Assembly: GCF_900112605.1 (NCBI RefSeq)
Contig: NZ_FOMJ01000001.1
Location: 24,577-88,576 of the forward strand
Reading direction: 5' to 3'
Origin: Thiohalospira halophila DSM 15071
GTDB taxonomy: Bacteria > Pseudomonadota > Gammaproteobacteria > Thiohalospirales > Thiohalospiraceae
DNA length: 64,000 nt
The notes under the pieces: generated by a model
Database searches by the model: none
Told to the model about the DNA's origin: nothing
What the model saw: only the letters and a program-made list of their open reading frames with translations
Part shown: one piece after another, positions 10,747-64,000 of the stretch
Layout: every line of letters begins with the position of its first letter
Position numbering within the stretch: the first letter of the stretch is position 1
Made by a program: the position numbers and the translations under genes

Positions 10747-11585
10747 CCGGTTATCCGCGGCCCTTCTTGAAGTGGGCGGGCAACAAGCACCGCCTCCTGG
10801 ACCGCATCCTGCCGCGGCTGCCGGCCGGCCATCGGCTTATCGAGCCCTTCGCCGGGGCGGCGGCGGTGACCCTGGCCGCCGACTACCCCGCCTACCGGCT
10901 GGTGGACAGCAACCCCGACCTCATCGGCCTGTTCCGGGCGGTACGCGACGGCGGCGAGGCCTTCATCGAGCAGGTCCGGGCCCTGTTTGCCGACGGCAAC
11001 GACGCCGCCACCTACTACGCCCGGCGGGAGGCCTTCAACGCCGAGACCGACCCCGAGGCGCGGGCGGCGCTGTTCCTCTATCTCAACCGCCACGGCTACA
11101 ACGGCCTCTGCCGCTACAACCGCGGCGGCGGCTTCAACGTCCCCTTCGGACGGTATGCCCGCCCCTACTTCCCCGAGACCGAGCTCCGGGGCTTCCTGCG
11201 TCTCGCCTGGACCCGGGGCATCGAGCTCGCGGTGAGTGATTTCGAGGCCGAGCTCGACGGCGCCCAGCCAGGGGATGTCGTCTACTGCGACCCGCCCTAT
11301 GCACCCGCGGGCGAGGGGACGGGGTTCACCGACTACGGCCCCGACGGCTTCTGGCCGGCCGATCAGGTTCGCCTGGTCGCCGCGGCCCGGCGGGCGGCGG
11401 CGCGGGGTGTGCCGGTCCTGCTGTCCAACCACGACACCGAGCCTGTGCGGGCGAGCTGCGCCGGCGCGGCCATCGAGTCGTTCCCGGTGGCCCGGACCAT
11501 CAGCCGGCAGGGCACCGGGCGCCGGCCGGTGGACGAGGTCCTGGTGCGGTTCGAGCCCGCTTCCCTGGCCAGGGCCGGGGTGTAA
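10743..11585 (+). CDS. Dam-type (D12 class) adenine-N6 DNA methyltransferase
   Basis: 280 residues from GTG 10743, overlapping the previous stop. Motif X, FLKWAGNKHRLL, is near residue 8; the SAM-binding region is LIEPFAGAAAV near 38; catalytic motif IV DPPY is near residue 183. The CGLCRYN-like and FNVPFGRY segments are typical of Dam/DpnM enzymes. It should methylate adenine in a short palindrome such as GATC, but the specificity is inferred from family only. No cognate endonuclease gene is adjacent, so it is an orphan methylase that may protect the element or control its replication or expression. Confidence 0.88.
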   Translation: MTGYPRPFLKWAGNKHRLLDRILPRLPAGHRLIEPFAGAAAVTLAADYPAYRLVDSNPDLIGLFRAVRDGGEAFIEQVRALFADGNDAATYYARREAFNAETDPEARAALFLYLNRHGYNGLCRYNRGGGFNVPFGRYARPYFPETELRGFLRLAWTRGIELAVSDFEAELDGAQPGDVVYCDPPYAPAGEGTGFTDYGPDGFWPADQVRLVAAARRAAARGVPVLLSNHDTEPVRASCAGAAIESFPVARTISRQGTGRRPVDEVLVRFEPASLARAGV

Positions 11586-22186: not shown

Positions 22187-24709
22187 ATGGGCGTGAGCGC
22201 CGCCATCCGACGGTTGTTCCAGGGAGGGAGGGGCAAGAGCGGCGACCCGATTCCGAACAAGCCCGGCGGGCTGTCACCGGAAGGCTCTGTCCCGCGTTAC
22301 CCGCCCCTTGTGGAGGGCACTCCCGCGGTGGGCGTAGACGAGATCCTCGAAAGCCAGCACCGGCTCATAATCCGGGTGAAGGAGGAGGTCGGCCTGCCCC
22401 CGGCCAAGGGGGAAGCGTATGTCGATCCGGTGATCCGCACCTATGCCAACTACGTCCACCTCCTGCCGGCATCGGCGACCCACCACCATCGCGGTCCGGG
22501 CGGGCTTTTCCGTCATGGCCTGGAGACGGCCATGTGGGGGACGCAGGCCCTGCAGGGCAGGCTGATCGTGATGGGCCGGGACCTTTCCCCGGAGCAGCGA
22601 TACCACGAGGAGCCGAAGTGGCGGTATGCCTGCCTCATCGCCTGCCTGTGCCACGACATCGGCAAGATCGTCACCGACATGCGGGTGGTGACCGAGGACC
22701 GCGAGATGACCTGGTCGCCGTACAAGGCACCTCTGGCGGAATGGCTGAAGCAGTCCCGGGTGAAACGCTACTGGGTGAACTGGGAGGAGGACCGGCACAA
22801 GGTCCACGAGGCCGTGGGGGTGGGGTTCATCGAGCGGCTGGTGCCCGAGTCCGCCTATGACTGGCTCCACGGGGAAAAGGGGCAATTCATCGCCCTGCTG
22901 CACCGGTATCTCTCCGGCTCCGAGCCGCGCGAGCGGGATCGCAACTTCTACGAGTGCATCCAGTGGGGGGATCGCACGAGCGTAAAGCGGGACCTGGAAG
23001 GACAGATGCTGGTCGCCGGCGACGAGCGTCAGGAGGTGCCGGTGGCGCAGTACGTCATGGACGCCATGCGTCGGCTGCTGGTGGACCGGCGCTGGACCAT
23101 CAACGAGCCCGGTGCCCGGGTGTGGGTGGGGGAAGGGGGAGAAGACGAGGCGTACCTGCTCTGGCCCGAGGCCATCAACGAGGCGGTGGCGTTGCTGCGC
23201 CAGGACGAGATCCCGGGGATACCGGGGGACCCGCAGGTTGTCGCCAAGCTCCTCTGGGATCGGTTTGCCCTGGGGGATCTGGGTGAGGAGGACGAGGAGC
23301 TGCAACGGGGAATGGAAGAAGAGGCCCCGAAGAAGGCCTCCATCGCCCCGGAGATCCTGCGCCGGGACGATGGGGAGCTGACCTGGCTCTCGGTGGTGCA
23401 GCTCAACCCCTACGCGATTGGTGTTCCGGAGGACACGCCGGGCGTGCAGCTCCATCACCCGGCCAAGCCAGCTGCGTCCGGAACGGACGATGCGGAAGGG
23501 GGCCGCGAGGGTGTTCCGGGCGATCCGGGGGGCCTGGAACAGGCCATGGAACAGCCGATGGAACGCCCCGCCGAGCCGATGGAACACGGGGGTGTTCCAT
23601 CCGGGGATCCCGGGGGCGGAACAGCCGAAAAAGCCGAGGGTAATCAGTCTGTTCCAATGGAACATCCGGATGGAACAGAGGCTGGGGGTGTTCCGGTTCC
23701 CGGTCGGGTGGAACACCAGGCCGACAACTCGGCGGATGCAGCATCCACGGCTGGCGATGGAACGGGTGGAACGCCGGCGGATGGAACGCCCGTCGGGTCT
23801 GGAACACCCCATGGAACAGCCGATGGAACAGGCCATGGAATAGCCCCCGATCTCTCTGACCTCGATGAGGTCAGCCGCACGCTGGTGGAGACCGCGGCCC
23901 GCACCGGATGGTCGGCCGGGCGCCGGGAGTGGGCCGTGCCCCTGGAGGCGTTGGCGTCCGAGCCGGACGAGAAGCCCCTGAAGATTGTCCAGCCCTACCA
24001 GGCGCTCCTGGAGCCCGATCCGGAGCGGCCGATGTCGGTGATCCGACGGGACGCCGAGTCCGGGAAGTACGTGGTGCTCCAGCGCCGGCTCGGCAAGCGC
24101 GCGGAGGAGCTGGCCGCGGCCTCGGTCTCCGGCGTGCCGGACGGGGTTTCCGCCCGGGAGGCCGGAGAGTCCACCGAGGAGCTCGGCCAACACGAGGCCC
24201 CTGCGTCTGCCGCGGACCCGGAGCTCGACCCGTCTGCCGAGGCCGTCTCAGAGGTCCATGAGACGGCGGCGCCAATGGACGCCGCCGAGGGTCCCGGGCC
24301 CGTGGAGGAAGGCCGTGGGTCCGGGCCCGATGAAGGCCGGGGGACTGAAGACCTCTCTTCCCCTGGCCGGGAGGTGGCGCGGGGTGATTCCGAGGAGGCG
24401 GCGCTCATTGAGGAGCTGGCAGAAGCCTTCCAGCAGTGGATCGAGGAACAGGCGTTTCTGGACTCGGATGAGAAGCCTTCGTGGGTCGTACCGGGGGCGC
24501 ATGCGCACTGGGTGGACATCAACGAGGCGGGAGTCGCCTTTCATAAGGCCGAGTGGGAGTGGGTCTCCAAGCGGATCCGGTCTGCGCGCAAGATGATCCT
24601 GTTGCTGGAGAGGGCGCCGGTCGTGGAGGCCCCGGCTGCGATTCCTCCCGAGGTGAAGGCGAAGTTCAGTCGGCGGGATCGGATCCGGATGGTGCAGCGG
24701 AGGCATTGA
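22187..24709 (+). CDS. traI: MobH-type relaxase (TraI_2 / HD-like domain)
   Basis: 840 residues, ACAGGAGAG upstream. The N-terminal ~330 residues form the TraI_2 relaxase domain: VHLLPASATHHHRGPGGLFRHGLE near 92-115 with the HHH triad, and ACLCHDIGK (about 152-160) as the HD motif. This is the metal-dependent relaxase class of SXT, R27 and IncC. Residues about 425-560 are a low-complexity linker built on GGAAC/GTTCC repeats. A C-terminal domain (about 750-840; FQQWIEEQAFLD, HWVDINEAG) matches the TraI_2 C-terminal region. It nicks oriT and pilots the strand; traD follows with a 1-nt overlap. Confidence 0.92.
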   Translation: MGVSAAIRRLFQGGRGKSGDPIPNKPGGLSPEGSVPRYPPLVEGTPAVGVDEILESQHRLIIRVKEEVGLPPAKGEAYVDPVIRTYANYVHLLPASATHHHRGPGGLFRHGLETAMWGTQALQGRLIVMGRDLSPEQRYHEEPKWRYACLIACLCHDIGKIVTDMRVVTEDREMTWSPYKAPLAEWLKQSRVKRYWVNWEEDRHKVHEAVGVGFIERLVPESAYDWLHGEKGQFIALLHRYLSGSEPRERDRNFYECIQWGDRTSVKRDLEGQMLVAGDERQEVPVAQYVMDAMRRLLVDRRWTINEPGARVWVGEGGEDEAYLLWPEAINEAVALLRQDEIPGIPGDPQVVAKLLWDRFALGDLGEEDEELQRGMEEEAPKKASIAPEILRRDDGELTWLSVVQLNPYAIGVPEDTPGVQLHHPAKPAASGTDDAEGGREGVPGDPGGLEQAMEQPMERPAEPMEHGGVPSGDPGGGTAEKAEGNQSVPMEHPDGTEAGGVPVPGRVEHQADNSADAASTAGDGTGGTPADGTPVGSGTPHGTADGTGHGIAPDLSDLDEVSRTLVETAARTGWSAGRREWAVPLEALASEPDEKPLKIVQPYQALLEPDPERPMSVIRRDAESGKYVVLQRRLGKRAEELAAASVSGVPDGVSAREAGESTEELGQHEAPASAADPELDPSAEAVSEVHETAAPMDAAEGPGPVEEGRGSGPDEGRGTEDLSSPGREVARGDSEEAALIEELAEAFQQWIEEQAFLDSDEKPSWVVPGAHAHWVDINEAGVAFHKAEWEWVSKRIRSARKMILLLERAPVVEAPAAIPPEVKAKFSRRDRIRMVQRRH
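23425..23845. repeat. GGAAC/GTTCC motif array inside relaxase gene
   Basis: About 20 GGAAC or GTTCC pentamers occur in ~420 bp, often as ATGGAACA. They are read in three ways (ME-, -GT-, -VP-), so the DNA word is conserved independent of the protein frame. The same word forms the array at 1-186. Confidence 0.75.
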
Positions 24710-38976: not shown

Positions 38977-41349
38977 ATGCCGGTTGTCCGCGTAGGACTG
39001 CGAGTGCTGACCGCGGCGATGCTCGGGGGGCTGGCCGGGGGCGCATTTGCTGCCCCTGGCGGGGCCCAGGGTGGCACCTGTGGTGGAGAGGCGCTGGCAA
39101 CGGGGGAATGCGAAGCGGCCAACCTGATTTCTCAGGAGGATTTCGACCGTGTCCACGCGATCCTGGAGCAGACCGATGCCGAGGGCGGCAATGTGCAGGA
39201 GCGTATTCGAGCCGAGCGGGAGGAAGCAGGGTCGCTCGCTGAATCGGCGCGAGGGGGCCTGGAAGAGCTCCGCATCAAGGACCTGCCTGGACGTATCGCC
39301 GAGTTCGCGGATCAGGGCGATCTAGAAGGGGGGAATTTGCCGTTTTCGCCGGTTGCGGAGGACGGAAAAGCCGGTGTGACGCACACGCTCCTGCTATCGG
39401 AGAGCATCCCTGCCAGTCAGCGCAAGACGCTGCTGAAAGAAGCGGCAAAGGCGCAGGAAGCGCGCCCCGACAGCGAGGTGGCGGTCTATTTCCAGGGCCC
39501 GCTGGTCGATAAGGACATCGACGAGACCGTTCGGCAGTTCTCGCGCTGGCTGAAGGAGGCCGACCTGGAGCACTCGGAAGTCGCGCTCGGGATCAACAAC
39601 AAGGTATTCGACCGGCACGGCGTGGAGGCTGTCCCGACTTGGGTGTCCGAGCGCGGCGGCGAGCTGGTGGCGAAGGCGTCCGGTCTCGGGGATCTCGATT
39701 ACGTTCTGGAGCAGGCCGAGGAGGCCGATGAGCCCGACATAGGCCGGAGAGGCAATGTTTGGTCGGTCGCCGAGCCCCATTTCGTTGAGGAGTACGTGAA
39801 GACCCGGATCCAGGACTGGATTGAGGAGCAGGGCGGAAAGGAAGCGATCATTGAACGGGGCCGCCAGGCTTTCTGGGAGCATCAGGAGTTCCACGAGTTC
39901 GAGTTGGAGCCGGCCGAGGCTCGCAACAGCTACGTCGTGGACCCGTCCGTCACGGTCACCGAGGACATCACGGTCCCCGGGAAGGACCGGTTAATCGCTC
40001 GCAAGGGGCAGCGCGTAAACCCCCTTTCTGCCGTCCCCTGGACAAGGCCCCTACTGATCTTCGATGGAAGCCGCCCCCAGGAAGTCGAATGGGCATCCGA
40101 CTGGCTTGAAGAAAATCGCTCACAAAACCCGATACTGGTCACATCCCGGATCGATACAGTAGGCGATGGATGGGCCAATTACCGAGACCTAACGAACACC
40201 CTTGGCCACCACGTTTATCTTTTACCGAAAAACCTACGGACCCGCCTTGGCATTCAGAAAACGCCGAGCGTGATTCGCGGCACGGGTGATCGAAAACTTC
40301 GTGTTACTGAGTTTCCCGTAGAAAAGTCTCTCGGTGGATTTTTATTACCTGATTCTGTAACCGGATGGATGGGGCGCCTGTACGCCTCCTTTCCTTCTTT
40401 TATTTCCCCGGCAAATGCGCAAGTTTCGGATGCAGCTTGTCCGAATGGGAGCGTATTTTCGCGGATGTTTTCCGATGTTTGCTGGGACTGTCATATTCCC
40501 TTTTCGGTGGCGGGGCAGGATTTAGGTGGAGATGCGCCGAATGGGTTTAATCGGTCGCCGGTTTGTATGTGCGAACCGCCTTTCCCGGGCGTAACCATGG
40601 GCGCGTGGTTGCCATCAAGGTTGGTCGAGTTGGTCCGCACTCCGGGATGCTCGCCGACGATGTTTGGAAGCAGCCTGACTTTCGGGGGGCCGGGGATGGG
40701 AATGCAAGGGGGCAGCAGAGAGCGAGCATCCGACGGTAATTCGGGTGCCAAGACATTTTACCACTACCACTATTGGGCATTCCCGGCCGGAGAGATCCTG
40801 GGAACATTAACCGGATGCGTTTCTAAGACGAGTTTGGACATGATGTACGTATCCGAGATGGATCCTACCTGGAATGAAGATCAGATTTCTGTTCTTACGA
40901 CCCCAGAAGCCGCCCTTTTTGCGAACCCGATTGCACAGTCCGCATGCGTGGGTGAGGCCATGGCAGTCGGAGCTGGCGTTGAGCCTATTGAAACATTGTA
41001 TTGGTGTGCAGGCGCTTGGGGTTCCATGTATCCATTTACGGGTAACCTGGCTTACCAATCCAGCCCTATTTCCGACACCTCCCTGCTGGCAGTCCGGAGC
41101 CTGGCTGCGCTTCATAGGCGTGGATTGGCGCGGGACTTCAAGGGAAATCCCTGTGACGGGGTTTTTGAGCCCATGATCCCGAAAAACTCCTACCGGTGGT
41201 CTCAATACTACCCGGTTCCGGAAAGCAACAATACGCATTGGACCGGCCAGGCACCTGTGTATTGGGGGCCGCACCGAACAATTCCCGGTCGGGGTGAGGA
41301 TTATATTCACATGCTCTGGCGATGGACGGACTGCTGCCTGGAGAGTTAA
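38977..41349 (+). CDS. traWU: TrbC-TraW-TraU fusion, pilus assembly and DNA transfer protein
   Basis: 790 residues in one uninterrupted frame. A signal peptide (about 1-27) is followed by a TrbC-like thioredoxin-fold domain (about 105-245; VYFQGPLVDKDIDETVRQF, NNKVFDRHGVEAVPTWV). A TraW domain (about 310-450) has VVDPSVTVTEDITVPGKDR, GQRVNPLSAVPWTRPLLIFDG and ILVTSRIDT. A full TraU domain (about 475-790) has CPNGSVFSRMFSDVCWDC, RSPVCMCEPPFPGVTMGAWL and many cysteines. TrbC-TraW fusions are known in R27/SXT; TraU is normally separate. A degenerate export-like segment (LYASFPSFISPANAQ) remains at the W-U junction, as if the traU signal peptide had been read through. GC falls in the TraU part. 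Confidence 0.9.
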   Translation: MPVVRVGLRVLTAAMLGGLAGGAFAAPGGAQGGTCGGEALATGECEAANLISQEDFDRVHAILEQTDAEGGNVQERIRAEREEAGSLAESARGGLEELRIKDLPGRIAEFADQGDLEGGNLPFSPVAEDGKAGVTHTLLLSESIPASQRKTLLKEAAKAQEARPDSEVAVYFQGPLVDKDIDETVRQFSRWLKEADLEHSEVALGINNKVFDRHGVEAVPTWVSERGGELVAKASGLGDLDYVLEQAEEADEPDIGRRGNVWSVAEPHFVEEYVKTRIQDWIEEQGGKEAIIERGRQAFWEHQEFHEFELEPAEARNSYVVDPSVTVTEDITVPGKDRLIARKGQRVNPLSAVPWTRPLLIFDGSRPQEVEWASDWLEENRSQNPILVTSRIDTVGDGWANYRDLTNTLGHHVYLLPKNLRTRLGIQKTPSVIRGTGDRKLRVTEFPVEKSLGGFLLPDSVTGWMGRLYASFPSFISPANAQVSDAACPNGSVFSRMFSDVCWDCHIPFSVAGQDLGGDAPNGFNRSPVCMCEPPFPGVTMGAWLPSRLVELVRTPGCSPTMFGSSLTFGGPGMGMQGGSRERASDGNSGAKTFYHYHYWAFPAGEILGTLTGCVSKTSLDMMYVSEMDPTWNEDQISVLTTPEAALFANPIAQSACVGEAMAVGAGVEPIETLYWCAGAWGSMYPFTGNLAYQSSPISDTSLLAVRSLAALHRRGLARDFKGNPCDGVFEPMIPKNSYRWSQYYPVPESNNTHWTGQAPVYWGPHRTIPGRGEDYIHMLWRWTDCCLES

Positions 41350-59024: not shown

Positions 59025-59146
59025 CCCCAGCGCGGGAATCGCCATTCCCCGCTGGGGGTGCCCTGTGTCCAGGGTGCGATTCGTTCCTGCCCGTGCTGGG
59101 TTTTCCCCTTGTATCGACACCTCAGCAGGAGAGGTGTATCTGGAGG
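59025..59146 (+). promoter_or_regulatory. Leader RNA element E1 (ssb)
   Basis: Hairpin CCCCAGCG...CGCTGGGG (59025-59057, inner stem GGGAAT/ATTCCC) and a second hairpin ACACCTC/GAGGTGT (59117-59137) just before the GGAGG. The ribosome binding site is outside the second stem, unlike in E2, E4, E5 and E7. Confidence 0.6.
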
Positions 59147-59151
59147 CAATC

Positions 59152-59655
59152 ATGGCAGCACGTGGCGTGAACAAGGTCATCCTCGTCGGCAATCTGGGCG
59201 CTGACCCGGAGATCCGCTACACCCAGAACGGCTCTGCCGTCGCCAACCTGCGGCTGGCGACTTCCGAGCAGTGGCGGGACAAGCAGACCGGCGAGAACCA
59301 GGAGCGTACCGAGTGGCACCGAGTGGCCATGTTCGGGCGGCTTGGTGAGATCGCCGGGGAGTACCTGAAGAAGGGCTCCAAGGTCTACATCGAGGGCAAG
59401 CTGCAGACCCGCAAGTGGCAGGCCCAGGACGGCTCCGACCGCTACAGCACTGAGGTCATCGCCAACGAGATGCAGATGCTCGACGGCCGCAATAGCGGTG
59501 GTGAGCAGGGCGGCTTTGGCGGCGGCCAGCGGCAGGGTGGCTTCCAGAGCGGCCAGGGCCAGCAGCAGGGGGGCGGCGCCCCCCAGGGGCAGCCGGCTGC
59601 CGCTGCAGCGGGTGGTAGCACCTTCGACGACATGGACGACGATATTCCGTTCTAA
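59152..59655 (+). CDS. ssb: Single-stranded DNA-binding protein
   Basis: 167 residues. The OB fold covers about 1-110: [63 protein letters not shown]-rich linker is followed by the protein-binding tail DDMDDDIPF. The long frame 5' of 59152 is leader. Element-encoded SSB coats the transferred strand and works with the RecT and exonuclease genes downstream. First gene of the operon. Confidence 0.96.
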
Positions 59656-59703: not shown

Positions 59704-59847
59704 CCCCATCGGGGCGTACTCCGCCCCGATGGGGCGTGGTGTGCCTCGATGGATCCCCCAATGCCCTCTCCGGGGCCTCCCACAGCGTCCCGGCCGGGCG
59801 TTGCGGGAGGCCCCGGTGCGGGGCGTTTTTCCATCTGGAGGTACACC
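59704..59847 (+). promoter_or_regulatory. Leader RNA element E2 with ribosome-site-sequestering stem
   Basis: A perfect 13-bp hairpin CCCCATCGGGGCG / CGCCCCGATGGGG (59704-59734), then GGTGTGCC (59738-59745) complementary to GGTACACC (59840-59847), which ends at the AUG and contains the last bases of the GGAGG site. Between them is a strong GGGGCCTCCC/GGGAGGCCCC hairpin (59772-59814) with T5 at 59826, like an attenuator. Confidence 0.65.
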
Positions 59848-60036
59848 ATGAAGAGCAGCTTCGCTCCCGCACTCGCGGGGATTATCTCGACCCTTATCAT
59901 CGCGGCGACCGGTGTAGCCGTCGCCAGCGCCTTCCCGGAGCCGGAGCAGATGGGCGCCCACCAGGTCATCCTCGACAACGAGGAGACCTGCGCCTTCGTC
60001 AAAGGTTTCCGCGGAGACGAGGGCATGAGCTGCTAG
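59848..60036 (+). CDS. Small exported protein, 62 aa
   Basis: MKSSFAPALAGIISTLIIAA opens a signal peptide ending near ASAFPEP. The mature peptide is about 35 residues with two cysteines (ETCAFVKGF, GMSC), possibly one disulfide. GGAGG lies upstream inside the leader stem. Function unknown; tight control by element E2 suggests that its dose matters. Confidence 0.65.
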   Translation: MKSSFAPALAGIISTLIIAATGVAVASAFPEPEQMGAHQVILDNEETCAFVKGFRGDEGMSC

Positions 60037-60053
60037 CTCGTGCCCGCACGACA

Positions 60054-60302
60054 CCTCCTGTCGCACCGGTGTGCGACAGGGGGAGGCAAGGAGTCCGTCA
60101 CGGACTCCTGTCTCCTGGTGGCGGACGGTCATCAGCAGACAGGGGTTCGCCCGTCCGGGCGCCACCGCTGGGCAACGATGAGACCTTCCTGCGCTTGCGA
60201 GGAAGGCCGGCCCCAGGCCGTAGCGCACACCATAAACCCGCCCGGGGTGTACCGCACCCCGCCGGGGCCGTGGTGCACCCCCGCAACCCGTGGAGGTTCA
60301 CC
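60054..60302 (+). promoter_or_regulatory. Highly structured intergenic RNA, elements E3 and E4
   Basis: Five hairpins in ~250 nt: CCTCCTGTCGCAC/GTGTGCGACAGG (60054-60080), GGAGTCCGT/ACGGACTCC (60090-60108), GGTGGCG/CGCCACC (about 60117-60168), CCTTCCT/AGGAAGG (60184-60206) and CGGGGTG/CACCCCG (60243-60261). It ends with GGTGCACC (60272-60279) facing GGTTCACC (60295-60302) directly before the AUG. Confidence 0.6.
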
Positions 60303-60524
60303 ATGGATCGAAAGCATCCCGCGATTTCCCTGCTTGCCGGGGAGATTGACCGGAAAAAGCAGCAGATCGGGCGCATGCGCGAGAGCTGGAAGTATTCGCC
60401 GTCCGCGGGCGGCGATGAGGGTCCCCCGGACCTGACCCGCTTCGAGGAGGAGTTGGAGGAGCTGAGACGCTCCCTGGCCTTCTTCCGCGAGCACTATCCG
60501 CTGGAGGAGGGCTGGATCGACTGA
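60303..60524 (+). CDS. Small helical protein, 73 aa
   Basis: MDRKHPAISLLAGEIDRKKQ leads a soluble, charged helical protein, with DLTRFEEELEELRRSLAFFR in the C-terminal half (coiled-coil-like). ATG 60303 lies at the end of element E4. No family recognised. Position between ssb and recT suggests an accessory role in recombination. Confidence 0.65.
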   Translation: MDRKHPAISLLAGEIDRKKQQIGRMRESWKYSPSAGGDEGPPDLTRFEEELEELRRSLAFFREHYPLEEGWID

Positions 60525-60567
60525 TCCGGCCTTCCTCCTGCCCGCCGTCCATCCTGGACGGTATTTA

Positions 60568-60634
60568 CCCACCTTGGGGTACATCGTGCCCCGGGTGGGG
60601 ACTGGTGTGCCCCTGGAAAACCCGGAGGTACACC
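60568..60634 (+). promoter_or_regulatory. Leader RNA element E5 with ribosome-site-sequestering stem
   Basis: Hairpin CCCACC/GGTGGG with inner GGGG/CCCC (60568-60600), then GGTGTGCC (60604-60611) opposite GGTACACC (60627-60634) ending at the AUG. Confidence 0.65.
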
Positions 60635-60946
60635 ATGGCTGAGAACATCTCGGTCGAAACCGACGACTACGGCAACACCGTGGTCGATATGACCATTCAG
60701 TACGACGGCCACCGCCGCGAGGTGGTGGGGCTGTTCATGGCGGGCACGGACCTCTGCGAGGTTCGTGTCTACATTCGCTTCCCCAGTCGCCTCAACGGCC
60801 GGGAAGGGGTTTCCCATGGGAAACTCCTCCCCATGCCCGAGTCGGACGAGGATCTGGTGGCGTTCACCGAATCCCGGGCTACCTCGGTAGCCCGGGAGAT
60901 GGATCGCACCCCGATCCTGGAAGCCGTGCCTCCGCTGGAGGCGTAA
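60635..60946 (+). CDS. Hypothetical protein, 103 aa
   Basis: Begins MAENISVETDDYGNTVVDMT and is soluble and beta-rich in the first half (EVVGLFMAGTDLCEVRVYIR), helical and acidic in the second. ATG 60635 ends element E5. No family recognised. It belongs to the ssb-recT-exo operon by position. Confidence 0.65.
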   Translation: MAENISVETDDYGNTVVDMTIQYDGHRREVVGLFMAGTDLCEVRVYIRFPSRLNGREGVSHGKLLPMPESDEDLVAFTESRATSVAREMDRTPILEAVPPLEA

Positions 60947-60952
60947 CCACAA

Positions 60953-61004
60953 CCCCAACGGGGGCGCATTGCCCCCTGGCGGGGGAGGTGCGCCCAAGGA
61001 GGAA
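60953..61004 (+). promoter_or_regulatory. Leader RNA element E6 (recT)
   Basis: Hairpin CCCC-n-GGGGGC / GCCCCC-n-GGGG (60953-60984), then GAGGTGCGCC and AAGGAGG. The GGTGCGCC strand has no partner before the AUG, so the recT ribosome site is open. Confidence 0.6.
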
Positions 61005-61006
61005 TC

Positions 61007-61981
61007 ATGGCTCAACAGCAACAACAGCAGCTGGCGCCCTACGAGGGTGCCATCGAGGCCGCCCGCGAGCGGTTCCAGGAGCTGGCCAAATCTTCGGGTC
61101 TCGATGTCGAGGCCGAAGTAATGTTCGCCTACCAGGCGTTCAGCCAAAACGGGTTCCTGGCCAAGGTGGCCAACCAGAACCCGGCTTCGGCCCAAATGGC
61201 CGTCATCAACGTGGCGGCCGTGGGGCTGACGTTGAATCCCGCCCAGGGGTTGGCGTTCCTGGTCCCCCGGGATGGACAGGTCCTCCTGGACATCTCCTAT
61301 CGAGGGCTCATCAAGCTCGCGATGGATGAGGGGGCCATCACGGCCGCCAAGGCGGAGCTGGTCTACGAGAAGGACCATTTCGCCTACAACGGGCCGTTCC
61401 AGGTCCCCGACCACCAGTGCAACCCCTTCTCGGATCAGCGAGGGGCGATGGTCGGGGCCTACTGCTCGGCCAAGCTCCCTGATGGGACGTGGCTCACCGA
61501 GACGATGTCCATGGCGGACATTGAGGCGGTGAAGGCCACCTCCCAGTCCGCCCAGAAGGGCAAGGGCCCCTGGGTGGAGTTCTTCGGGGAGATGGTGAAG
61601 AAGGCCATCACCAAGCGGGCCAGCAAGTGGTGGCAGAGCGCCAGCCACGAGCGGCTGGCCGAGGCCATCCGGCTCCTGAACGAGGGCAACGGTGAGGGGT
61701 TTGCGGCTTCGGCCGGGAGCGCCACCGGTGCCTCGTCCAGGCCGGACGCGGGTAGCGGCCAGACCTTCGAGCAACCGCCCGAAGAGACGGCCTATCCCGA
61801 GCAGGCCAGCGACTTCGCCCGGGCCAAAACGGCTCGGGTGATCGAACGGGCGCAGAAAACGGGCCAGTGGGCCGCCGCCGAGGAGTACGTCGGCGATCGG
61901 TTCCAGGGCCACGACCTGGTCTATGCCAAGCAGCAGCTGGCCCAGGCCAAGCCCGCCGAGTCCACCGCAGACTCGGAGTAA
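61007..61981 (+). CDS. recT: RecT-family single-strand annealing protein
   Basis: 324 residues. A Q-rich start is followed by the RecT core (about 60-215): EVMFAYQAFSQNGFLAKVAN, AVINVAAVGLTLNPAQGLAF, ISYRGLIKLAMDEGAITAAK, FGEMVKKAITKRASKWWQS. The C-terminal ~90 residues are acidic and variable. RecT/Bet proteins anneal complementary single strands. With the YqaJ exonuclease and SSB this is a complete phage-type recombination system, as on SXT (bet-exo), which drives element mosaicism. Confidence 0.95.
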   Translation: MAQQQQQQLAPYEGAIEAARERFQELAKSSGLDVEAEVMFAYQAFSQNGFLAKVANQNPASAQMAVINVAAVGLTLNPAQGLAFLVPRDGQVLLDISYRGLIKLAMDEGAITAAKAELVYEKDHFAYNGPFQVPDHQCNPFSDQRGAMVGAYCSAKLPDGTWLTETMSMADIEAVKATSQSAQKGKGPWVEFFGEMVKKAITKRASKWWQSASHERLAEAIRLLNEGNGEGFAASAGSATGASSRPDAGSGQTFEQPPEETAYPEQASDFARAKTARVIERAQKTGQWAAAEEYVGDRFQGHDLVYAKQQLAQAKPAESTADSE

Positions 61982-62013
61982 CGTCACCGCCGGCTTCGGC
62001 CGGCATTCATCAA

Positions 62014-62079
62014 CCCCACTGGGGGCATATCGCCCCCGGTGGGGGTGGTGTGCCCCCAGTTTTCGTAAGGAGGCACACC
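62014..62079 (+). promoter_or_regulatory. Leader RNA element E7 with ribosome-site-sequestering stem
   Basis: Hairpin CCCCAC/GTGGGG with inner GGGGGC/GCCCCC (62014-62044), then GGTGTGCC (62047-62054) perfectly complementary to GGCACACC (62072-62079) ending at the AUG. A GCCGGC-TTCG-GCCGGC hairpin lies just upstream. Confidence 0.7.
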
Positions 62080-62673
62080 ATGTCTGTTCTTTCCTACGTC
62101 ACCACCGCCGCCGGGCGGTGCTACGAGTACCTTCTGCTCTCGGCCCTGGTCCTCACGGTCGCCCTCTTCGGGGCGGCCACCGAGGCCGAGGCCCGGGAAG
62201 TCACCGGCGAGTACGTCACCGAGGACTTCCACCTGGAGTGGCACGGGGACGACGGGGTCCGCGAGACCTTCGTCCGCGTGACCATGATCGGGGCTCGGCC
62301 CTTCAACCTCCTCCTGGAGGGGAAGCCGACCACCGATCCGGTGGAGGTCCGGGAGCGCGTCGAGGCGAAAATCGGCGGTGCTCTGGATGAACGGCCGCGG
62401 CAGGTCCGACTGGACGGCAAGAACGGTGTGGAGGTCACGCTTACCCAGATCGTGGGCTCGGACATCGTCCAGATCGCCGTCCAGCAGGGCCGGCGGAAGG
62501 TCTCCGCGGATCTCGATCCGTGGCAGCCCATCCCCTATGCGGTGCAGTCCCGCGTCCGTCGCATGGGCGTGGAGCTGGCCACCCAGGACGGCCAGGTTCT
62601 CGTGAAGGGTCGGGCCATGGGCCTGCCCGTGAACGCGAACCATCGGCTGCGTCTGGCGGGGATGCCGCAATGA
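62080..62673 (+). CDS. Exported hypothetical protein, 197 aa
   Basis: Starts MSVLSYVTTAAGRCYEYLLL and has a signal peptide or membrane segment through about residue 37 (ALFGAATEAEA). The rest is soluble with beta strands (GEYVTEDFHLEWHGDDGVRE; RVTMIGARPFNLLLEGKPTT). No family recognised. An exported protein inside a recombination operon is unexpected. It overlaps the exonuclease start by 4 nt. Confidence 0.65.
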   Translation: MSVLSYVTTAAGRCYEYLLLSALVLTVALFGAATEAEAREVTGEYVTEDFHLEWHGDDGVRETFVRVTMIGARPFNLLLEGKPTTDPVEVRERVEAKIGGALDERPRQVRLDGKNGVEVTLTQIVGSDIVQIAVQQGRRKVSADLDPWQPIPYAVQSRVRRMGVELATQDGQVLVKGRAMGLPVNANHRLRLAGMPQ

Positions 62674-63794
62674 CGGCCGCAACCCAAGCCATGCGTGTCG
62701 CCAACGTCCAGCAACGGACACCGGATTGGCACGTCTGGCGGAGGCAAGGGGTGTCGGCCTCGATGGCCCCGGTGCTCACCGGGCGGTCGAAGCAGCGGTC
62801 CCCGTGGGACTACAACACCCCCTGGGGGTTGTGGGCCGCGGCCATCGGGCTGCTCCCCGAACCCGATCTCTCCGGGAACCCGAATATCCAGCGCGGCATC
62901 AAGCTGGAGCCCCAGGCCCGGGAGACGGTGGAGTGGGAGCTGAAGAACCCCGACAGCTCGATGTTCAGCGATGGGCTCCTCCTGGAGCCGGGGGAGCACG
63001 ACCTACTCCCGGTCTGCGGGGAGTCCGTCGAGGAGCCCTTCATGCGGGCCAGCCTGGACGGCCTGGTCGGGGACATTCCCTTCGAGCTCAAGTGCCCGTC
63101 CCAGAACGTCTGGGACGATGTCGTCTTGAACCGCGAGCGGTCCGAGACGGTGAAGATGTACTGGGCTCAGCTCCAGCACCAGCTCTTCGTCACCGGTGGA
63201 CTGCAGGGTGTCCTGTGCTTCTACCGGGACGCGATGCAGTACCGGCTGTTCGTGTTCGATCGGGATGACTCGTTCATCCAGAACGAGTTGCTCCCGGCGG
63301 CCCGCGACCTGTGGAAGAACATCCAGGACTGCACGGAGCCGGACAAGGATCCGGATCTGGATGTCTGGCACCCCGAGGGGGAGGACCTGTTTCGGTGGGC
63401 CGAGGTGTCCAACCGCTACAAGGTTCGCCGCCAACGGGTGAAGGAGCTGGAGCAGGAGCTCAAGGCCCTCAAGTCGTCCATGAAGGACGATGAGCAGGCG
63501 CTGGAAGAGCTCATGGGCTCGTGGGCCGCGGCGGAAGCCGATGGTCTGCGTGTCCGCCGCGGATACCGCCGAGGGTCCGTGGACTGGAAGGGGGTCGTCG
63601 AGGAGCTCCACCCCGACGGGGTGGAAGAAGAGCTCCAGGAGCGCCACCGCCGGCCTGGATCTCCCCAGGTCACGGTGACCGTTCAGGGCGACAAGACGAG
63701 TTCGGCAGCCGCCGGCCCCGCCGCCCCCCAGGTGTCCGGTCAGGACGCCAATGAAGAGCCCGAGGAGTCGTTCGACTTCGAGTGGTTCTTCTGA
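62670..63794 (+). CDS. exo: YqaJ/lambda-exo-type recombination exonuclease
   Basis: 374 residues. The N-terminal GVSASMAPVLTGRSKQRSPW has the YqaJ signature serine region; the nuclease core has FMRASLDGLVGDIPFELKCP (Asp near 131, Glu-x-Lys near 138-140) and YWAQLQHQLFVTG. A C-terminal coiled coil (about 265-300) and acidic tail follow. It resects double-stranded DNA 5'-3' and loads RecT. Together with ssb and recT it forms a Red-like system. Confidence 0.93.
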   Translation: MTAATQAMRVANVQQRTPDWHVWRRQGVSASMAPVLTGRSKQRSPWDYNTPWGLWAAAIGLLPEPDLSGNPNIQRGIKLEPQARETVEWELKNPDSSMFSDGLLLEPGEHDLLPVCGESVEEPFMRASLDGLVGDIPFELKCPSQNVWDDVVLNRERSETVKMYWAQLQHQLFVTGGLQGVLCFYRDAMQYRLFVFDRDDSFIQNELLPAARDLWKNIQDCTEPDKDPDLDVWHPEGEDLFRWAEVSNRYKVRRQRVKELEQELKALKSSMKDDEQALEELMGSWAAAEADGLRVRRGYRRGSVDWKGVVEELHPDGVEEELQERHRRPGSPQVTVTVQGDKTSSAAAGPAAPQVSGQDANEEPEESFDFEWFF

Positions 63795-63801
63795 CGGTGA
63801 A

Positions 63802-63868
63802 CCCCCGCTGCCCCGGGGAGGTTGAACAGCACCTCCCGGGCAGGGGAGGTGCGTCTAGGAGGAAAAGC
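63802..63868 (+). promoter_or_regulatory. Leader RNA element E8
   Basis: Long hairpin CTGCCC..GGGAGGT / ACCTCCC.GGGCAG (about 63808-63843), then GAGGTGCGTC and AGGAGG. As in E6 the ribosome site is not paired. Confidence 0.55.
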
Positions 63869-64000
63869 ATGTTGAACGGTACTTTCTTGCTGGAAGGACT
63901 CCGTGACATGGGTAAACTGACCATAGTAGCCAGCTTTATTGGTTACTTCATCGAGGGAGCGAGGTTGGCTGGCTGCATGTTTGCCCTGATCTCTGGGGGT
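63869..64000 (+). CDS. Start of a gene running off the window
   Basis: ATG 63869 with AGGAGG upstream. The visible 44 residues (MLNGTFLLEGLRDMGKLTIV, then ASFIGYFIEGARLAGCMFAL) suggest a membrane-associated or exported protein. It continues the ssb-recT-exo operon. Too short to assign. Confidence 0.5.
   Translation, partial: MLNGTFLLEGLRDMGKLTIVASFIGYFIEGARLAGCMFALISGG

Follow-up and report, generated by a model that had tools for sequence, protein, structure and literature searches.

Reiterated leader RNAs with three alternatively pairing strands at gene starts of the ssb-recT-exo operon in a putative SXT/IncC-like element

Described leaders at comparable positions

Among the major carriers of resistance genes are the SXT/R391 integrative conjugative elements and the IncC plasmids, whose Red-like recombination genes contribute to the formation of hybrid elements. 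Upstream of one of these genes, bet, a translational attenuator that hinders expression has been described in SXT, and it also occurs in IncA/C plasmids, according to the passages of a review that treat it (PMC4542580, citing Garriss et al. 2013). The leaders presented here share with this attenuator, as the review describes it, the operon (ssb-bet-exo), the place upstream of bet and translational repression (PMC4542580), the reduction of translation by the leaders of the DNA analysed here being a folding prediction. In those same passages the attenuator is reported for bet only, whereas here such leaders are found ahead of most genes that do not overlap a neighbour, in the operon and at other loci, in many MOBH families; moreover, a third, competing helix is present here, the comparison being with the review's description and not with a structural model. 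The passages searched in other papers on SXT and IncC elements do not mention such structures. In short, the leaders repeat and extend an attenuator type that is already known, here with a three-strand anatomy.

Two further systems come to mind. In the expression platforms of riboswitches and attenuators, one strand pairs alternatively with an upstream partner or with a downstream partner that holds the Shine-Dalgarno (SD) sequence. Mutually exclusive helices around the SD are found here as well, but no conserved aptamer core was seen and the loops vary even within one replicon. At the Rfam gathering score there was no riboswitch match in the window or in L005-L007, L010, L012, L013, L015 and L019, the sole match being a tRNA, and a search of L005 3000-11700 at E up to 5 gave chance-level matches only. 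The mRNA of T4 gene 32, which encodes a single-strand-binding protein, has a leader pseudoknot upstream of its SD. The present leaders are likewise structured, and helix A:B together with the outer stem of hairpin H1 (both defined below) could form an H-type pseudoknot, a short version of which is geometrically possible in some leaders by inspection. Unlike the T4 leader, they precede most genes, hold the SD in a separate helix and give no indication of an autogenous protein.

The start-associated sequences (SAS) of cluster K mycobacteriophages, and the ESAS, are also short repeats over the SD at the starts of many non-structural genes, about half of the SAS having an upstream inverted repeat (PMC3203893). 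They differ in that the SAS is a fixed 13-mer, and in that departures within the ESAS do not support RNA pairing according to the authors (PMC3203893), while here they do. Identity with the SAS was rejected: its 13-bp sequence GGGATAGGAGCCC has one match with 2 mismatches in the 64 kb, against 3.65 expected, and not at these starts.

The leaders of the window operon

The window, that is, the whole 64-kb stretch of DNA analysed, corresponds to C1:24577-88576 of a 2.69 Mb genome, and its gene content indicates that it belongs to an SXT/IncC-like MOBH integrative conjugative element. The window holds ssb-recT-exo, and the flank carries a MoxR-type AAA protein, a DUF3150 relative, CobT/VWA and a primase. 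The following markers lie in or near the window.

Window 22343-23260: TraI_2 relaxase
Window 40465-41340: TraU
C1:12100-12558 (L008), minus strand: FlhC-like protein, 12 kb left of the window

Each leader was divided into hairpin H1, strand A (the inner 5' arm and loop of H1), strand B (just 3' of H1) and strand C (from the SD to the start codon). These boundaries come from a simple stacking-energy helper, and the gene starts of the window were picked by SD and frame.

59025-59057, plus strand: E1, atypical H1-like hairpin upstream of ssb, read by eye
59152-59655, plus strand: ssb (Pfam SSB PF00436, E 1.6e-41)
59704-59734, plus strand: E2 hairpin H1, whose inner 5' arm and loop are strand A
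59738-59745, plus strand: E2 strand B GGTGTGCC, paired to C in the minimum-energy fold
59840-59847, plus strand: E2 strand C (SD/start) GGTACACC, abutting ATG 59848
60237-60267, plus strand: E4 hairpin H1 with strand A
60272-60279, plus strand: E4 strand B GGTGCACC; A:B 12 pairs, B:C 9 pairs
60295-60302, plus strand: E4 strand C GGTTCACC, abutting ATG 60303; one mismatch to B
60568-60600, plus strand: E5 hairpin H1 with strand A
60604-60611, plus strand: E5 strand B GGTGTGCC; A:B 13 pairs, B:C 13 pairs
60627-60634, plus strand: E5 strand C GGTACACC, abutting ATG 60635
60953-60985, plus strand: E6 (recT) hairpin region; in the free fold the loop side pairs with B and the SD lies outside the main stem
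60987-60994, plus strand: E6 strand B GGTGCGCC, without a partner at the recT SD
61007-61981, plus strand: recT (Pfam RecT PF03837, E 7.3e-28)
62014-62044, plus strand: E7 hairpin H1 with strand A
62047-62054, plus strand: E7 strand B GGTGTGCC; E7 ranks first in the annotation-blind scan
62072-62079, plus strand: E7 strand C GGCACACC, abutting ATG 62080
62670-63794, plus strand: exo (YqaJ; Pfam PF09588, E 5.8e-14)
63805-63846, plus strand: E8, atypical hairpin before the gene at 63870; its downstream strand pairs with the 3' arm, not with the SD

A sequence-only reading had proposed that four starts (59848, 60303, 60635 and 62080) are each preceded by a hairpin and by an 8-nt strand complementary to the start region, with the 3' strand always abutting the AUG. 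The four hairpins and their strand pairs were all confirmed at these coordinates and fold as described, and C directly adjoins the ATG in E2, E4, E5 and E7. One of the four B:C pairs, GGTGCACC:GGTTCACC of E4, contains a single C.U mismatch. The inventory of four proved incomplete: right of the window more copies precede the genes at window-equivalent 64665, 65331, 66322, 74999, 76030, 77150, 79106 and 79591, which brings the element to about 14 leader copies, and recT has a hairpin and a B strand without B:C. Copies precede most of the operon genes that do not overlap their upstream neighbour. The sequence GGNNCACCATG occurs four times in the window, each time in one of these leaders, against 0.94 expected.

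Some members depart from the common plan, as E8 and E14 do. At recT, the equivalent of bet, sequestration of the bet type was not found: there is no B:C, the SD lies outside the main stem, and it is the neighbours that carry the full version. In E1 an additional hairpin follows the H1-like one and the B:C pairing is weak; its three-strand score was not significant with the first switch finder, which was too loose and gave poor significance per leader. The product of the ORF at 62080 is an unknown protein, not exo; exo starts within the stop codon of the preceding ORF (an ATGA overlap) and has no leader of its own.

Other features were noted nearby. Just upstream of E4, E10 and E12 (window 60172-60236, L005 9198-9262 and L005 18845-18905) lies a conserved ~70-nt block, GGGCAAcGaTGAGA...GCGCcTGCGAG...GGCGC, and in IncC replicons an analogous repeat, GTGCGATAGCTGGTCGCCAAAAACAAACAGC, precedes several leaders; both are possibly activator-dependent promoters. 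Between B and the SD, E2, E11 and E16 have a further, long GC hairpin that ends in CGGGGCGTTTT or a similar sequence (window 59746-59839, L005 10217-10310 and L006 3515-3575), of which one is terminator-like at 59810-59824. A ribonucleotide reductase-like gene (start L005 10322) is apparently interrupted by an intron-like insert of ~270-290 nt (L005 ~11155-11440), for which Rfam gave no match even at E up to 5, and an IS30-like transposase ORF, read from sequence, lies between this gene and E12 (L005 15236-16255, minus strand).

Pairing and covariation in relatives

When RecT and the DUF3150 protein were used as protein queries, the searches turned up MOBH plasmids and the record of an R391-type ICE; genes in all of these are taken from the deposited annotation. 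The same plan, in different sequence, is found in intergenic gaps of Vibrio p123, Marinobacter pMAQU02 and pHL2708Z5, Microbulbifer and pR997 (a member of the R391 family), of IncC pYR1, Edwardsiella, pCP7-41 (an IncP-7 plasmid) and Shewanella, and of V. parahaemolyticus pVPS43, Aeromonas pAsmA and Stutzerimonas. Those of pR997, of the IncC and IncP-7 plasmids and of the Vibrio, Marinobacter, Aeromonas and Shewanella MOBH plasmids stand upstream of orthologous genes. The bet leaders of L012, L013, L016 and L021 have H1, A:B and B:C like those of the window, with 6 A:B and 8 B:C pairs in the R391-type leader of L012. The IncC bet leader was found in 87 of 5426 E. coli genomes, nearly always on plasmids. 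The Xanthomonas replicon has one clear copy without an overall signal, and the plan was not evident in the leaders inspected and scored of Proteus pHFK418-NDM and Providencia p18001477_NDM. Eleven other genomes of the same family, searched with the DUF3150 protein, gave no match, nor did a RecT search of genome contigs.

Are the strands of a leader made for each other? The permutation test extracted A, B and C by one fixed rule and set the best helix of each leader against the helices that arise when partners are re-dealt among leaders of the same replicon. In the main set the cognate pairs gave z 10.1 for A:B (n=113) and 10.6 for B:C (n=106), with 0/10,000 permutations each. Among the leaders of the window element alone the pairing likewise exceeds chance: z 5.1 for A:B (14 leaders) and 4.1 for B:C (13 leaders), again with 0/10,000 each. 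These figures come from a hairpin choice limited by loop size, which replaced an earlier run (z 5-9) whose automatic choice often took A:B for H1. By the time of the first test the plan had been recognised by eye on the window and on most of L010-L019, which makes these partly a discovery set. L016, unread before testing, gave z 5.1 for A:B and 5.0 for B:C, and five replicons fetched later (L020-L024) gave, under the same rule, 6.9 and 8.2 with 0/10,000, the signal coming from L020, L021 and L022. By this permutation test no overall signal was seen in L023 and L024, the signal is absent or weak in the AT-rich or distant relatives L018, L023 and L024, and A:B alone is not significant in L017 and L019.

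When the partner was reversed as a control, z fell to 1.1 for A:B and 3.2 for B:C; the test controls base composition approximately, so composition contributes a little to B:C. Could the whole pattern then come from chance or composition in spacers rich in GC, or from a single repeat copied recently? The copies of the window are indeed alike and the region has 66% GC, but partners were permuted within replicons and low-GC Vibrio and Proteus replicons are included. Two IncP-7-type plasmids illustrate a triple change between orthologs: the DUF3150 leader has A/B/C = GGGGGAATC / CGATTCCCCC / GAATCG in one, and GGGGGAACTT / CGAAGTTCCCCC / GAACTTCG in the other. Furthermore, in an annotation-blind scan of 136 kb the top six of 561 candidate starts all lie within the window operon, and four window copies exceed the top value of three shuffles. 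Chance or copying is already contradicted by the permutations, the replication on later replicons and the double changes among orthologs, and we give it next to no credence.

These double changes were counted in 18 ortholog sets as cells rather than independent events, each sequence serving in turn as the reference. Pairing was kept in 68% for A:B (27-39% with slid partners), in 60% for B:C (27-47%) and in 55% for H1 (35-51%), the support for H1 being weaker; A:B is the helix with the best covariation support.

The pairings and their covariation are direct observations. Allowing G.U in the mRNA sense gave z 10.0 for A:B and 10.8 for B:C, against 7.5 and 7.6 when A.C was allowed instead, a better fit that points to pairing in RNA. 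The inverted-repeat character and the repetition at many starts might also suit protein-binding sites in DNA, be they operators or inverted repeats of the ESAS kind, in which case RNA pairing would be incidental, and the authors who described the ESAS judged DNA sites likelier in cluster K mycobacteriophages (PMC3203893). For the present leaders such an origin is highly improbable: copies within a replicon differ in sequence yet keep their complementarity, the G.U preference is that of the mRNA, the distance from B to C is widely variable, and the 3' strand lies on the SD. Selected sequestration of the ribosome-binding site at the RNA level, as first proposed, is strongly supported by the permutation tests, the ortholog double changes, the G.U preference and the published bet attenuator of SXT.

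Alternative folds and a possible switch

The fold first proposed, with B:C over the SD and start codon, stands, but one helix was overlooked, in competition with H1 as well as with B:C. Besides C, the SD region, strand B has a second complement in A, the H1 loop and inner 5' arm, and RNAalifold, given eleven copies, picked the A:B helix unprompted. Since the H1 loop alone gives z 7.3 against B, A:B is not merely a copied stem arm. A:B and H1 cannot fully coexist, and A:B and B:C both use B, at least 4 bases of which are common to the two in 85% of the 92 leaders having both helices.

Against dinucleotide shuffles, the fold of the leader has z -10.2, -3.8, -4.4 and -6.7 in E2, E4, E5 and E7, respectively, E2 being folded as 150 nt up to the AU of AUG. 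The free folds of E4, E5 and E7, and likewise the 150-nt fold of E2, place the SD and start codon in B:C beside an intact H1, and H1 with B:C is the free fold across leaders. The recT leader keeps A:B without B:C, and its free fold is open, with the SD outside the main stem. When A:B is forced in the 92 leaders, at a median cost of 8 kcal/mol, predicted SD openness rises from 0.30 to 0.54 (68 leaders up, 5 down). Each leader is probably a cis-acting three-strand translational attenuator, with a default-closed state and an A:B alternative. Two choices would be open: for strand B, pairing with A or with C; for strand A, pairing within its own hairpin or with B. By default (OFF), H1 would be formed and B would lie on C, hiding the ribosome-binding site. 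If H1 were opened or blocked, A could capture B and free C, and we infer that A:B is the ON state. The genes with copies would share one type of control, of which the recT of the window would retain the open version only.

It is also conceivable, if unlikely, that the attenuator is constitutive: B:C would fix a low level of translation, and A:B, having no part in an ON state, might only be a folding guide or a transient intermediate. The 8 kcal/mol median advantage of H1 with B:C fits such a role, and the passages of the review that describe the bet attenuator state no inducer (PMC4542580). On the other hand, no helix has better support from ortholog double changes than A:B, which also includes H1 loop bases, and recT retains A:B without B:C.

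A more remote alternative is a transcription attenuator, in which A:B and a run of U would form an intrinsic terminator and H1 the antiterminator. A:B is followed by 7-8 U in L010 hp2, L014 hp2, the R391-type hpA and the DUF3150 leader of L019; overall, U after A:B averages 3.17 against 3.07 in the leader background, with at least 5 U in only 20 of 103, and the window stretch shows no excess of terminator-like sites over shuffles. As a general explanation, an intrinsic terminator was rejected on these two counts, and it would leave the conserved B:C unexplained; we consider it very unlikely. About 8 U stand straight after A:B in L010 hp2, L014 hp2, L012 hpA and radC, where a termination role may be added locally.

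What, then, would open the three-strand attenuator? In most leaders the OFF state is far more stable than A:B, and reaching the ON state therefore requires a helper. SSB, RecT or CsrA had been suggested as ligand in the sequence-only reading, but these find no support: both loops and strands vary among the leaders of a single replicon, which makes a sequence-specific binder of this kind unlikely. The candidate triggers would be ribosomes terminating just upstream, for intergenic copies, or a general RNA-remodelling factor. Intergenic copies begin 0-48 nt (median 15) from the upstream stop codon, and about one-third begin at most 10 nt past it; there the outer arm of H1 could lie under a ribosome that is terminating translation. 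Because only this third is so close and certain copies have no close upstream gene, coupling to upstream ribosomes cannot account for all of them.

A wider, tentative possibility, to which we assign less than even weight, is that the leaders form one riboregulon with different sequences and a common fold. A single signal of a general kind, such as translation upstream or the remodelling of RNA in transfer or stress, would open H1; A would capture B, and in SXT/R391, IncC, IncP-7 and related elements the genes for recombination and replication would be switched on jointly.

Collectively, the data suggest that the reported bet attenuator belongs to a set of copies of one module, found ahead of most operon genes that do not overlap their neighbour, and that the competing helix of this module has been kept across distant replicons. 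The three-strand model is precise and testable, and nature provides the variants, with recT open and its neighbours closed. An isolated observation on bet thereby becomes a question of a shared control signal.
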